The position numbers were made by a program, and so were the translations under genes. The notes beneath the pieces were generated by a model. The model was given only the letters and a program-made list of their open reading frames with translations, had not been told where the DNA came from and made no database searches. Shown here in pieces: positions 43,372 to 48,550 of a stretch of DNA of 64,000 bases (its first letter is position 1; each line of letters starts with the position of its first letter). This stretch comes from Stenotrophomonas sp. 24(2023) (GTDB taxonomy: Bacteria > Pseudomonadota > Gammaproteobacteria > Xanthomonadales > Xanthomonadaceae), in the NCBI RefSeq assembly GCF_030913365.1, contig NZ_CP133160.1, forward strand, positions 3,262,001-3,326,000, in the 5' to 3' direction.

Positions 43372-44390
43372 TCTTTCTCCTTGCCAGCAGCCAGGACGCG
43401 ACGTGCGAGGACGTCCAGCTGCTTGAAGCGCGCGGCGTTCTTGCGCCACGTGCGGTTGTCGGTCAACGGGGTGCCGGAGGAGTACTCGCCCGGCTCATGG
43501 ATGGAATTGCGCACCACCGACTTGCCGGTGATGACGACCTTGTCGCAGATCTCGAGGTGGCCGACCACGCCGACGTGGCCGCCGAGCAGGCAGTAGCGGC
43601 CGATCTTGGCGCTGCCGGCGATGCCGGTGCAGCCGGCGATGGCCGAGTGCGCGCCGATCTGCACGTTGTGGGCGATCTGCACCAGGTTGTCCAGGCGCAC
43701 GTCTTCGTCCAGCACGGTGTCTTCCAGCGCGCCACGGTCGACGCAGGTGTTGGCGCCGATTTCGCAGTCATCGCCGATGCGCACGCCGCCCAGCTGGGGC
43801 ACCTTGATCCACTTGCCGGCATCCATGGCCAGGCCGAAGCCATCGGCGCCGAGCACGGCGCCGGGGTGCACGCGTACGCGCTTGCCCAGCTTCACGCGGG
43901 TGACCAGGGTGACGCGGGCGATCAGTTCGCAGCCGGTGTCCAGCGAGCAGTCCTCGCCGATGATGCTGCCGGCGCCGATGATGCAGTTCTCACCGACCAC
44001 GCTGCGCGCGCCGAGGGTGACGAACGGGCCGATGTGGGCGCTGGCGGCGACCTGGGCGCTGGGATCGATGACGGCGCTGGGGTGCACGCCCGGCGGCCGG
44101 GTCGGCGCGATGTCGAACAGCGCGGCGATCTTGGCGAAGGTGGTGTACGGGTCCTTGGCGATCAGCGCGCTGCCGGGCGCGGCTTCGGCGTCGTCCGCGC
44201 GCAGCACGACCAGCGAGGCCTGGCTGCCTGACAGCTGGGCGCGGTAGCGTGGGTTGGCAAGGAAGGTCAGCTGGCCGGGGCCGGCATGGGCGAGCGTGGC
44301 CACGCCGTGGATGGCCACGGACGGGTCGCCGTGGACCTGGAGGCCAAACTGCTCGGCAAGTTGCTGGGCGGTGTAGGTAGGAGTATTCAC
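43368..44390 (-). CDS. lpxD: UDP-3-O-(3-hydroxyacyl)glucosamine N-acyltransferase
   Basis: A 340-aa acyltransferase for the third lipid A step. The N-terminal uridine-binding domain (about 1-100) is followed by hexapeptide repeats ([20 protein letters not shown]). The catalytic-His region is [20 protein letters not shown] (about 232-251). The start is GTG at 44390, giving [16 protein letters not shown], the family's N-terminus. In E. coli, skp lies just upstream after bamA; here 363 bp of repeats and hairpins separate it from bamA, and lpxD probably has its own promoter. Confidence 0.96.
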
Positions 44391-44460
44391 GGCGGGAGTT
44401 TACCGTGTGACGACAGTCCGGTCATGCGGGTGGGCCTGAGGCGCCTGATTGTGACGAGGG

Positions 44461-44566
44461 GGCTGGGCGGGGCTGCCTGTGCAGGACACGCCGTAAACCC
44501 ATCCATGGGGGCTCGTCCACGGCATCCATGCCGTGGACGGTCCTGCACAGGCAGCCCCGCCCAGCC
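44461..44566. repeat. Large inverted repeat with two nested hairpins
   Basis: Two perfect 27-bp arms (44461-44487 and 44540-44566) enclose 52 bp. Inside are two further hairpins, each with a CC apex: CCCAT-CC-ATGGG (44498-44509), and a 12-bp stem (44514-44525 with 44528-44539, core GTCCACGGCAT). The whole can fold as a three-armed RNA or cruciform. It belongs to the 363-bp gap between lpxD and bamA (44391-44753), where no gene is seen. A related element may be scattered in Xanthomonadaceae genomes; I cannot check that here. Confidence 0.85.
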
Positions 44567-44601
44567 TCGACGGTTCCCCGCCTCCCCAGGCCACACCAAC
44601 G

Positions 44602-44624
44602 AAAACGCCGGGCGATGCCCGGCG
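44602..44624 (-). terminator. Rho-independent terminator of bamA
   Basis: Stem CGCCGGGC (44606-44613) with GCCCGGCG (44617-44624), loop GAT, then TTTT on the minus strand (AAAA at 44602-44605). It lies 130 bp after the bamA stop, past several other hairpins. Confidence 0.8.
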
Positions 44625-44648
44625 CTTCGATACCCGTCTGGTGGAGAG

Positions 44649-44727
44649 CCCCCCTTCTGTTAAGGGGGGCGCGCCAATGGCGCGGGGGATAGGTGGTAGG
44701 TCGGGACCCGCTGCTTGCGTAGCAAGC
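44649..44727. other. Series of three hairpins downstream of bamA
   Basis: CCCCCCTT / AAGGGGGG with a CTGTT loop (44649-44669); CGCGCC / GGCGCG with an AAT loop (44670-44684); GCTTGC / GCAAGC with a GTA loop (44713-44727). They lie between the bamA stop hairpin and its terminator and may stabilise the 3' end of the message. Confidence 0.6.
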
Positions 44728-44734
44728 CGCGGCG

Positions 44735-44775
44735 CACCTTCGGTGGTCAGTTCTTAGAACTGGCCACCGAAGGTG
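44735..44775 (-). other. Hairpin with the bamA stop codon as its loop
   Basis: The last six codons of bamA and the 19 bases after its TAA are inverted copies: 44757-44775 pairs with 44735-44753, 18 of 19 positions. The three-base loop is exactly the stop codon (TTA on +, TAA in the message). Confidence 0.85.
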
Positions 44776-47117
44776 AATTGCAGGCGCTCGATCTTGTCGT
44801 TGTCTTCCTTCTTGAACGGGAAGGCGTAGCTGATCGAGATCGGGCCCACCGGGGCGCGCCACAGCAGGGCGACACCGGCCGAGGCACGCAGTTCGTTGGC
44901 CTTGAAGTTGTCCACGCCGTTGTACACGTTGCCGAAGTCCACGAAGGCCGACACGCGGGCCGACGGGCTGTCGAACAGGCGCGGGAAGTAGGCTTCGATC
45001 GAGCCGACGGTCTTCAGCGAACCACCCAGCGGCTGGCCTTCCGGATAACCGTTGGTCACTTCGCGCGGGCCCAGGGTGTTGTCTTCGAAGCCGCGCACCG
45101 AGTTGGTGCCGCCGGCGTAGAAGTTCTCGTAGAACGGCAGGCCCTTGGCAGTGACCGGACGCAGGTTGCCGTCCTTGTCCGGCACCATCGCGGTCTTGTC
45201 CTTGCCATAGCTGTCGCCGTAACCGACTTCGGCGCGGGTGTTGATCACCAGCGACGGCATGATCGGCCAGTACTTGCTGATCTGGTAATTCAGCTTGTAG
45301 TACTCGATGGTCGAGCCCGGCAGGGTGGTTTCCAGGCCCACGCGCTGGTAGGTACCGCGGGTCGGCATGAAATAGTCGTTGCGCGAGTCGCGTGCCCAGC
45401 CCAGCTCCGTGCGCCACGCGTGGAAGGTCTTGCTGCCCAGCACGTTGATGTAGTCGATGATCGACTGCGGGGTGGAGCCCGGGTAGGTGGTGATCTGGTT
45501 GCTGTCGATGCCGAACATCAGCGAGACGGTGTCGGTCTCGGTGATCGGCACGCCGAACACCACCTGCGCCGAACCATTGGTGCTGTTGTACTGCGCGGTG
45601 TTGAAGTCGGAGTAGTCCAGTTCGCGCCAGGACAGGTTGTAGCCCAGCGACACGCCGTCATCGGTGAAGTACGGGTTGGTGTAGCTGAAGCCGTAGCGCT
45701 GCAGGTAGCTGCTGCGCGAGGCTTCCACGGACACGCGGTTGCCGCCGCCCAGGAAGTTGTTCTGCGACAGCTGCACGGAGGTGGTCATGCCGAAGGACTG
45801 CGAGTAGCCCAGGCCGAACACGAAGCTGCCGGAGGTGGTTTCCTTGACGTTGTAGACCACGTCGACCTGGTCGTTGCTGCCGGTCACCGCCGGGGTTTCC
45901 ACGTCCACCGACTCGAAGTAGCCCAGGCGCTGCAGGCGGATCTTGGAGCGGTCGATGGCGGCCTGCGAATACCAGCTGTTCTCGAACTGGCGCATTTCGC
46001 GACGCAACACTTCGTCGGAGGTGCGGGCGTTGCCCTTGAACACGATGCGGCGCACCGACACGCGCGGGCCGGGCACGACCTGCATGTTGATGGCCACCGT
46101 GCGCTCGGCACGGTTGGTGGTCGGGATCGGGTTCACCTTGGCGAAGGCGTAGCCGATGTTCGACAGCGAGTTGGTGATGGTGTTGGAGCTGAACTCCAGC
46201 AGCGCGCGCGAGAAGGTGTCGCCGGAGCGCTGGATGACCATGCGCTCGACGTCTTCCTGCGGCAGGATCGTGTCGCCGGTGACCTTGATCTCGGAAATCT
46301 TGTACTGCTCACCCTCGGTCACGCCGGCGGTGAGGAACATGTCGCGCTTGTCCGGGCTGATCGACACCTGGGTCGAATCGACGCTGAAATCGACATAGCC
46401 GCGGTCCAGGTACCAGGAGTTCAGCTTTTCCAGGTCGCCGGACAGCTTTTCCTTGGAGTACTGGTCATCGCGGCGGTACCACGACGCCCAGTTGTGCTCC
46501 TTCGACTCCCAGGTATCCAGGATGTCCTCGGCGTTGAACTTCTCGGTGCCGACCAGGTTGACGTGACGGATCTTGGCCGCCTTGCCTTCCTTGATGGCGA
46601 TGGCGATGTCCACGCGGTTGCGGTCCAGCGGGCTCACCGTCGGGGTGATCTCGACGTTGTACTTGCCGCGGTCGTTGTACTGGCGGCGCAGTTCCTGGGT
46701 CACGCGGTCCAGGCTCAGGCGGTCGAACGTGCCGCCTTCGGTCAGGCCGATGTCGGACAGGCCCTTGAGCAGCTGCTCGGACTTGATGTCCTTGTTGCCG
46801 GTCACGGTCAGCTTGTTGATCGCCGGGCGTTCCTTGACCGTCACCACCAGGATGCTGCCCTGGCGGTCGATCTGCACGTCCTCGAAGAAGCCGGTCTTGT
46901 ACAGGGCGCGGATGGTCTCGCCGACCTTGTTGTCGGTCAGGGTTTCGCCACGTTCCACCGGCAGGTAGGTGAACACGGTGCCCGAGCTGATGCGCTGCAG
47001 GCCATCGACGCGGATGTCGCTGACAGTGAAGGGCTCGGCTGCCTGGGCCAGGGCGGGAGCGCCGGTGACGGCGGCGAGGGCGAGGGCCAGCAGGCGGCGA
47101 TTGGGGAGTCGCGTCAT
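44754..47117 (-). CDS. bamA: Outer-membrane protein assembly factor BamA
   Basis: A 787-aa essential Omp85 protein that inserts beta-barrels into the outer membrane. ATG at 47117 gives the signal peptide MTRLPNRRLLALALAAVTG..ALAQA. Five POTRA domains follow (about 28-430), starting FTVSDIRVDGLQRIS. The C-terminal 16-strand barrel includes NSVRGFEDN (the RGF motif of loop 6) and ends in the terminal Phe (FGGQF). Upstream is rseP, 74 bp away, as in other proteobacteria. Downstream lies a dense set of hairpins, one of which loops out the stop codon. Confidence 0.98.
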   Translation of the reverse strand: MTRLPNRRLLALALAAVTGAPALAQAAEPFTVSDIRVDGLQRISSGTVFTYLPVERGETLTDNKVGETIRALYKTGFFEDVQIDRQGSILVVTVKERPAINKLTVTGNKDIKSEQLLKGLSDIGLTEGGTFDRLSLDRVTQELRRQYNDRGKYNVEITPTVSPLDRNRVDIAIAIKEGKAAKIRHVNLVGTEKFNAEDILDTWESKEHNWASWYRRDDQYSKEKLSGDLEKLNSWYLDRGYVDFSVDSTQVSISPDKRDMFLTAGVTEGEQYKISEIKVTGDTILPQEDVERMVIQRSGDTFSRALLEFSSNTITNSLSNIGYAFAKVNPIPTTNRAERTVAINMQVVPGPRVSVRRIVFKGNARTSDEVLRREMRQFENSWYSQAAIDRSKIRLQRLGYFESVDVETPAVTGSNDQVDVVYNVKETTSGSFVFGLGYSQSFGMTTSVQLSQNNFLGGGNRVSVEASRSSYLQRYGFSYTNPYFTDDGVSLGYNLSWRELDYSDFNTAQYNSTNGSAQVVFGVPITETDTVSLMFGIDSNQITTYPGSTPQSIIDYINVLGSKTFHAWRTELGWARDSRNDYFMPTRGTYQRVGLETTLPGSTIEYYKLNYQISKYWPIMPSLVINTRAEVGYGDSYGKDKTAMVPDKDGNLRPVTAKGLPFYENFYAGGTNSVRGFEDNTLGPREVTNGYPEGQPLGGSLKTVGSIEAYFPRLFDSPSARVSAFVDFGNVYNGVDNFKANELRASAGVALLWRAPVGPISISYAFPFKKEDNDKIERLQFTFGGQF

Positions 47118-47191
47118 GTCACGTCCGGTTGGAAGGTCGATTTCATTGGTGCGGGATGCCGACGGTGTAGACGGCGACAACGTGGAAAAGT

Positions 47192-48550
47192 TCATCGCGG
47201 GACCAGGCCGAGGAGGTCGTTGTAGAACGCCAACCCCATCAGCCCGGCCAGCAGCGCCAGGCCGATGTACTGACCTGCGGCGATGGCACGCTCGCTCAGC
47301 GGGCTGCCCTTGACCAACTCAATAAGGTAATACAGCAGGTGGCCGCCGTCCAAGATGGGAATGGGCAGCAGGTTGATGATGCACAGGCTCAGCGACAGCA
47401 GGGCCAGGAACTGCAGGAACCAGTCCAGGCCACGTTTGGCCGACAGGTTGGCGACCCGGGCGATGGTCACCGGGCCGGAAACGTTCTGTAGCGAAGCATG
47501 TCCGGTGACGATGCGGCGCATCATCGCCAGCGAATCGGCCGCCATCCGGCCGGTTTCGCCCAGGGCGACCGGCAGGGCGCCGAACACCCCGTACTGCAGC
47601 ACGGTGTCGTAGGCCGGGGTGTAGCTTTCGGGGTAGCGGATGCCCAGCTGCCAGGTCGGCTGGCCCTTGCCGTCCTTGCCCTGCTGCGGGGTGACCTCCA
47701 GGGCCAGGCGTTCGCCACCGCGCAGGACATCGATCATGCCCGGCCCGCCACGGCGGCCCAGGGCCTGGATTTCGGTGGCCACCTGGTCGGCGCCGTCGAT
47801 GCGCTGGCCGTCGATGGCCACGATCAGGTCGCCGGGCTGCAGCACGCCGGCGGCGGCCGAACCCTCGATCACCCCGTCCACGCGCGGGGGCTGCTGCCAG
47901 AACTGCCAGCTCATGCCCGCCAGCAGGGGCACGCGGCGTTCGTCGAAACCGGCCGGCAGCTGCGACAGCGGCAGGGTACGGGTGCGCACCTCGTCGTTGG
48001 CGTCCATCACCTCGACGGTGACATCGCGCCGGTCCATCGCCGCGGCGGTCAGTGCCATGCTGGCCTCGCCGGCGGTGTTCACCGTGCGCGTGTCGATGCG
48101 CAGCACGCGGTCGCCGCCGTGCAGGCCGGCAGCCGCAGCGATGCCGGTGGTGCGGCCCAGGGTCGCCGAATAATCCTGCTTGCCCAGCACGAACATCGCC
48201 CACAGCAGCAGCACGCACAGCAGCAGGTTGGCCAGGGGCCCGGCAGCGACCACGGCGATGCGCTGCCAGACCGACTTGTGGTTGAAGGCCTGGCCGCGTT
48301 CATGCGGATGAACCTCCACTTCGCGTTCATCCAGCATCTTCACGTAGCCGCCCAGCGGTATGGCGGCAATGGCGAACTCGGTGCCGTGGCGGTCGCGGCG
48401 CGACCACAGCGGGCGGCCGAAGCCCACCGAGAAGCGCAGCACCTTCACCCCGCAGCGGCGCGCGACCCAGTAATGGCCGAACTCGTGGAAGGTCACGAGC
48501 AGGCCCAGGCTGACGATCATCCACCAGACCGAACCGAGGAAGTCAGTCAT
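47192..48550 (-). CDS. rseP: Site-2 intramembrane protease RseP
   Basis: A 452-aa zinc metalloprotease in the inner membrane that trims anti-sigma factors such as RseA and old signal peptides. The zinc site HEFGH is at about 22-26 and the third-ligand motif LDGGH at about 398-402. Two periplasmic PDZ domains lie between (about 110-300; GVLQPGDLIVAIDGQRI). Four membrane helices. It sits between bamA and dxr, the conserved order of envelope genes. Confidence 0.97.
   Translation of the reverse strand: MTDFLGSVWWMIVSLGLLVTFHEFGHYWVARRCGVKVLRFSVGFGRPLWSRRDRHGTEFAIAAIPLGGYVKMLDEREVEVHPHERGQAFNHKSVWQRIAVVAAGPLANLLLCVLLLWAMFVLGKQDYSATLGRTTGIAAAAGLHGGDRVLRIDTRTVNTAGEASMALTAAAMDRRDVTVEVMDANDEVRTRTLPLSQLPAGFDERRVPLLAGMSWQFWQQPPRVDGVIEGSAAAGVLQPGDLIVAIDGQRIDGADQVATEIQALGRRGGPGMIDVLRGGERLALEVTPQQGKDGKGQPTWQLGIRYPESYTPAYDTVLQYGVFGALPVALGETGRMAADSLAMMRRIVTGHASLQNVSGPVTIARVANLSAKRGLDWFLQFLALLSLSLCIINLLPIPILDGGHLLYYLIELVKGSPLSERAIAAGQYIGLALLAGLMGLAFYNDLLGLVPR

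Follow-up and report, generated by a model that had tools for sequence, protein, structure and literature searches.

The stop codon of bamA in this genome sits in a near-perfect hairpin, which forms the 5' border of a non-coding element dispersed among the Lysobacteraceae (Xanthomonadaceae). The copies of this element share a conserved core, found within this family of bacteria, and on their 5' side, hardly ever on the 3' side, they carry hairpins whose arms are specific to each locus. We infer, with moderate confidence, that the inverted copy of the flank was made and re-made at the DNA level by replication template switching, with the stop codon incidental to it.

In the window (the whole 64,000-nucleotide stretch analyzed), the end of bamA and the bases just after its stop codon were found to be inverted copies of each other, as the original prediction had claimed. 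The arms pair at 18 of 19 positions, the single mismatch is C.A on the mRNA strand, and the loop is exactly the stop codon (Table 1). The stem across the stop had been expected to be very stable, and the 41 nt of H1 indeed fold as RNA to -30.1 kcal/mol (z -9.3), a value that 0 of 200 shuffles equaled. When ungapped inverted repeats spanning the stop were scored (match +1, mismatch -2) at gene ends predicted in the window and in 240 kb more of this genome, the bamA stop ranked first with 16, followed by 11, 8, and 8. A second control, which excluded bamA and permitted longer loops, covered 221 stops with a median of 4 and a maximum of 11, and 12 of them scored at least 8. The three further hairpins and the terminator expected within 135 bp were also located, the terminator-like stem being followed by four T. 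A stem of like sequence type lies at most ~50 nt after the bamA stop in several element-free relatives.

H1 is like the intrinsic terminators that reach into a gene end in having a GC-rich stem at the stop codon. It is unlike them in that its stem is followed by CGCCGCGG with no U run, and the terminator-like stem is separate and further downstream. A terminator scan of positions 44380-44800, in which five T in eight were demanded, found no terminator, and the 16 Rfam 15 matches on 44400-44900 were all under the gathering score of their family. Pfam was run for bamA, lpxD, and the M50 peptidase rseP, and the remaining gene names are a reading of the translations.

Table 1. Features at the bamA gene end and in the element behind it (window positions).
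Feature	Position	Strand	Remarks
bamA (813 aa)	44754-47195	-	Pfam Omp85 7.8e-88, POTRA 9.5e-69
bamA stop codon TAA	44754-44756	-	loop of stem-loop H1
H1 coding arm (end of bamA)	44757-44775	-	
H1 UTR arm	44735-44753	-	inverted copy of bamA end, 18/19
Second stem-loop H2	44708-44732	-	different-sequence hairpin at same place in several relatives
Conserved core of dispersed element	44635-44707	-	covariance model R1 match, 88.2 bits
C-rich unpaired linker of core	44684-44707	-	
Core hairpin HP3	44671-44683	-	GCGCC-ATT-GGCGC
Core hairpin HP4	44648-44670	-	GCCCCCCTT-AACAG-AAGGGGGGC
Terminator-like stem	44603-44627	-	then TTTT

A portion of the bamA UTR was found again elsewhere in the same genome, and the idea that the hairpin is unique to bamA was dropped for that reason. 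The element is laid out as a locus-specific stem-loop, often a second one, and then a conserved core of ~72 nt, which is made up of a C-rich linker, two GC-rich hairpins, and a CTCTCCACCAGA-like tail. From 23 sequences (19 bamA copies and four other copies of this genome) we built a covariance model of 72 positions, R1. With this model, whose E-values are rough, eight copies were found in this genome at E 0.01 or better, and 27 of 31 genus genomes had matches, with up to 24 copies per genome. Across the family, 82 of 149 genomes and 29 of 54 genera had matches at a similarly rough E of 1e-4, with at most 25 copies among the genomes listed. In the sample of the class, 3 of 185 genomes matched, all three of them Lysobacteraceae (Xanthomonadaceae), and the 20 listed from the 182 match-free genomes were all from other families. 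The core hairpins covary: in an alignment of 96 distinct copies that was fitted to the structure, 97.8% of cells were paired and 7 of 13 pairs had changed on both sides, a level reached in 0 of 500 shuffles. Regular tandem arrays were also observed, at L284 (G046), L303 and L283 (G089), and L262 (G002), with periods of ~116, 155, 125, and 148 bases.

The bamA end was matched in 90 of the 91 genus genomes searched (G037 gave no match), and 79 of the 90 alignments stop within 13 bases past the stop codon. We compared 89 of these 3' ends, from 88 relatives and the window; the remaining genome, G049, stands outside all counts, and it has the core and a bamA stop score of 14. Many relatives were found to carry an inverted copy of their own bamA end after the stop, in differing registers. 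The stop may be the loop (TAA, TAG, or TGA) or lie in the stem around the axis CAG-TT-CTG, the loop may be TTCTAA, or the arms may be split by a small extra hairpin. The last arrangement (class D, about 20 genomes) has an ungapped stem in which only six coding bases stand beside the stop. By R1, the core was present at the bamA ends of 70 of the 88 relatives and of the window, and absent in 18. A stop-spanning score of at least 8 was observed in 50 of the 71 ends with the core versus 0 of the 18 without (Fisher 2e-8), among which the top score was 7. In four of the 18, the stop is followed by a terminator-like stem in less than 50 nt. At the bamA end (44757-44780 in the window), more codons ending in A or T were seen in element-bearing genomes than in element-free ones.

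It had also been proposed that the UTR arm is matched to the codons of the coding arm, and across relatives this held in part. The inverted copy is not limited to one strain, the UTR arm has not freely diverged, and arms fit their own partners best. The bamA coding arm scored 21.3 with its own UTR versus 18.4 when swapped (sd 0.38; 0 of 2000 permutations; 59 distinct combinations, relatedness uncorrected), and own arms also beat swapped ones at pfkB (0 of 2000; 26 combinations, relatedness again uncorrected). These swap tests are inflated by relatedness, and they used element-present sets drawn by a pattern (for bamA, 67 with and 22 without) that misjudged divergent cores. Shuffles within classes of bamA reached the observed value 149 (A), 39 (B), 212 (C), and 1000 (E) times, each out of 1000, and shuffles within a single site reached it 340 times in 1000 for pfkB and 497 times in 1000 for argG, so most of these narrower tests fell short of significance. 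Compared to the window, G059 has three double changes in the bamA arms (CAA/TTG, TTT/AAA, and ACG/CGT). The six genomes that share this bamA UTR (G000, G009, G024, G033, G042, and G043) do not show selection for pairing. Their coding arms differ at synonymous sites and mispair, whereas their UTR arms hardly change.

To cover copies outside bamA, we took 60 regions, mostly the best-scoring listed matches plus five of this genome. Sixty copies were analyzed in 59 of the regions (L289 was too short, and L320 holds two), which by our own grouping represent about 21 sites, with many orthologs among them. We searched 80 nt on each side for a hairpin ending at most 8 bases from the core and compared it with 20 shuffles. 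The hairpin of the 5' flank beat all shuffles in 51 of the 60 copies, and that of the 3' flank in 4 of 60. At least one copy had a 5' hairpin beyond shuffles at 19 of the 21 sites; in 9 copies, the 5' hairpin was not beyond them. The 5' stems of the 60 copies are locus-specific, and the arm repeats the adjacent sequence in inverted form, as in quasipalindromes made by template switching.

A same-strand gene end (of at least 90 codons) was found within 135 nt of 30 of the 60 copies. A stop-spanning repeat of at least 8 was present in 21 of these 30 versus 12 of the 221 control stops (p 6e-13, with orthologs counted singly), and at least once in 10 of the 14 gene-end sites; the other 9 copies scored below 8. 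Examples include argG, a pfkB-like kinase, kup, mmsB, and a LysR gene. The argG hairpin reads GTCAACCGC-TGA-GCGGTTGAC in L279 and L285, and GTCAATCGC-TGA-GCGATTGA in L277 and L288. For the pfkB-like gene, we took ends from 70 of 90 genomes and could not parse 11 of them. By pattern, 29 genomes were core-free. Of these, 17 retain the right arm's end together with the first core bases, and at least two of the 17 have a divergent core. Because core presence and absence are blurred in this way, pfkB was not used as a clean contrast. In many genomes (L356, L281, L305, L280, and others), the inverted copy of the pfkB-like gene's own GGTTACGCG was seen to take in the TAA and the last residues. The element may therefore be the source of new C-terminal codons in this gene, whose ends varied among core-free genomes.

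Copies were also found at sites without a stop codon. Where the core is present at a tRNA site, the terminator palindrome reaches the CCA end over 24–27 bp with at most two mismatches, in species-specific sequences. This site was matched in 31 genomes and analyzed in 30 loci (none for G016; G015 ends at a contig edge). All 15 loci with the core, one of which (G008) has a weak core match at E 0.006, show the palindrome extended as far as the CCA end, versus 1 of 14 without it. The lone core-free case, G069, has bases resembling the core start, apparently a core remnant, and the remaining 13 of the 14 have a short terminator only. Before an HNH-type gene, the stem is 28–30 bp in six compared copies, and with the five distinct stems aligned from the outer end, 7 of 28 positions show at least two Watson-Crick types. 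Given the copies at the tRNA and in front of another gene, we gave up the idea that the hairpin is specific to stop codons.

The original prediction had treated the stem across the stop codon as the point. That emphasis is not supported in view of the equally good stop-free hairpins at these two sites and of the pattern of mismatches, which shows no bias by RNA strand. We counted 713 pairs in 38 distinct 5' stems. Of these, 680 (~95%) are Watson-Crick, and the others include 9 G.U and 14 A.C; G.U is not in excess in this comparison of 23 cells, which come from stems selected for their Watson-Crick pairing. Selection at the RNA level should favor G.U. Within a small sample of stems picked in that way, the lack of a G.U excess suits DNA-level copying.

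At mmsB, R1 identified the core in G015 only, among 26 orthologous loci. In the core-free genomes G065, G088, and G000, the gene end and TAA are followed by GCGAATGCG, and the stop is without a hairpin. In G015, the TAA and GCGAATGCG are separated by the element, which has a 12/12 inverted copy of the gene end, and the last codon is changed from AAA/AAG to CGG. The comparison is suggestive, and suggestive only, of a template-switch event. We also observed that the mmsB ends of L447 (G015) and L459 (G026) both read GACCGG TAA with a stop hairpin, and that G026 has no core behind it.

In the explanation we favor, the variable part of the element would be the stem-loop or stem-loops directly 5' of the core, with neighboring sequence as the outer arm and its inverted copy as the inner arm. 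A template switch at, or soon after, the arrival of the core would make the inverted copy, and later repeat switches would keep the arms alike. With copies located a few bases past the end of a gene, the sequence copied would be that gene's own end, and the stop would fall in the loop or the stem. The stop codon is thus probably incidental to the hairpin, and if the hairpin affects the bamA mRNA, that effect would be secondary. Several points count against template switching. The arms of the six UTR-sharing genomes were not re-matched when the coding arm changed, and the ungapped bamA stem of class D takes in few coding bases. A block to replication would be expected to work in either direction, whereas the copies are one-sided. 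Nine of the 60 copies have no 5' hairpin beyond shuffles, and 9 of the 30 near gene ends score below 8. At mmsB, the last codon of G015 has changed as well, and G026 has a related hairpin with no core. A wider reading, which we put forward tentatively, is that the element writes an inverted copy of whatever adjoins it 5', repeatedly in evolution and on that side only. It would then be a palindrome-maker that rewrites gene ends, able to supply last codons and stops and molding which codons are used in essential genes, bamA among them.

The alternative that fared best, although we consider it unlikely, is a selected RNA structure. The stem-loop and core would form a 3' UTR device (an exonuclease block, processing site, or Rho-type termination aid), and selection on the transcript would pair the arms and bend codon choice at the gene end. 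The better fit of own-partner arms, the covarying core hairpins, the very stable H1 stem, and the same-strand gene end that precedes 30 of 60 copies are all consistent with this, as is codon choice at the bamA end. GC3 in the last 8 codons is 0.757 with the element versus 0.910 without (0.870 versus 0.828 in the 20 codons before them), and codon -8 is CAA in 46 of 71 genomes with the element versus 2 of 18 without. However, G.U is not in excess over A.C in the stems, equally perfect hairpins occur before another gene at a site that no gene end enters, and the bamA UTR arm fails to follow the coding arm in the six closest genomes.

It is also improbable, in our judgment, that a mobile element requires the stem-loop as its functional end, in the form of a DNA hairpin recognized by a recombinase or single-strand transposase, where selection for mobility would keep a hairpin of any sequence. 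The dispersed copies and tandem arrays, the mmsB copy in just 1 of 26 orthologs, and the hairpins ending at most 8 bases from the core (a distance imposed by the search setting) would fit such an element. Many sites, however, recur across species, which argues that movement is not frequent, and the arms repeat the flank in inverted form and are not sequence that the element brought.

Some introns and insertion sequences insert behind existing hairpins, and the core might do the same, as the tRNA copy lies behind a terminator that is also found in element-free genomes. We regard this as very unlikely because a bamA stop hairpin of at least 8 was found in 0 of 18 core-free genomes, 13 of 14 core-free tRNA loci have only the short terminator, and the core-free mmsB loci of G065, G088, and G000 have no stop hairpin. 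Chance, or a coincidence of the FGGQF codons, is a negligible prospect: CAG TTC TGA contains a short palindrome, TCAG-TT-CTGA, as a possible hairpin seed, but the 0 of 200 shuffles, the control stops, and the recurrence at unrelated genes refute it.

Quasipalindrome template switching in E. coli reportedly involves inverted repeats and the homogenization of their arms. In yeast genes, the same process and arm homogenization occur also within coding sequence (excerpts of PMC8604942), and coding palindromes are described from Nematomorpha mitochondria (excerpts of PMC6649704). As far as these excerpts go, neither the E. coli and yeast quasipalindromes nor the Nematomorpha palindromes are the edge of a dispersed gene-end element, unlike the hairpins here. 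One template switch can make a perfect stem from adjacent sequence, and repeated switches can keep the arms complementary (excerpts of PMC8794818). The hairpins in that partial text are in RNA genes, whereas ours are tied to a dispersed element and recur on one of its sides at unrelated loci.

REP elements are found close to the ends of genes, and those of the GTAG class can provide a neighboring ORF with its stop codon (excerpts of PMC3733652 and PMC2817692). By the same partial accounts, our element resembles REP/BIME (the GTAG and CGTC superfamilies, RAYT-linked) as a short, dispersed, palindromic non-coding repeat near gene ends. REP/BIME stems, however, have a family-wide sequence and a GTAG-type head, whereas the 5' stem here is locus-specific and complementary to its neighbor. 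REP/BIME also usually exceed 100 copies per genome, compared to 8 in this genome and 24–25 at most among the genomes listed. No GTAG- or CGTC-type head was seen by eye in the core alignment, and the element differs from REP/BIME in both head and copy number. In the open-licence PMC literature, at the level of titles and the starts of abstracts, we found no description of an element edged by an inverted copy of its neighbor.

A second dispersed repeat was observed at 44461-44566 of the window, with a conserved center, ACGCCGTAAACCC.TCCATGGGGGCTCG, between 27-bp arms. Its copies in L211 (at 12983) and L213 (at 691) have wholly different arms, pairing at 24 of 26 and 27 of 27 positions, and a further match to the center, in L209, is without arms. 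This repeat has the same signature of a conserved core and a locus-specific palindrome.

The observation made at bamA is right, and it is larger than first noted: it belongs to a family-wide element with a neighbor-templated palindrome on one side, the proposed manner of copying being template switching. Covariation between arms is normally taken as proof of a selected RNA structure. The element and its matched element-free sites allow a natural test of whether copying of DNA is enough by itself to create and maintain long covarying stems, coding sequence included. They also add a family-wide repeat for annotation in the Lysobacteraceae, a group with plant and hospital pathogens, in which unusual codons and stop positions at the ends of several genes may be due to the element.
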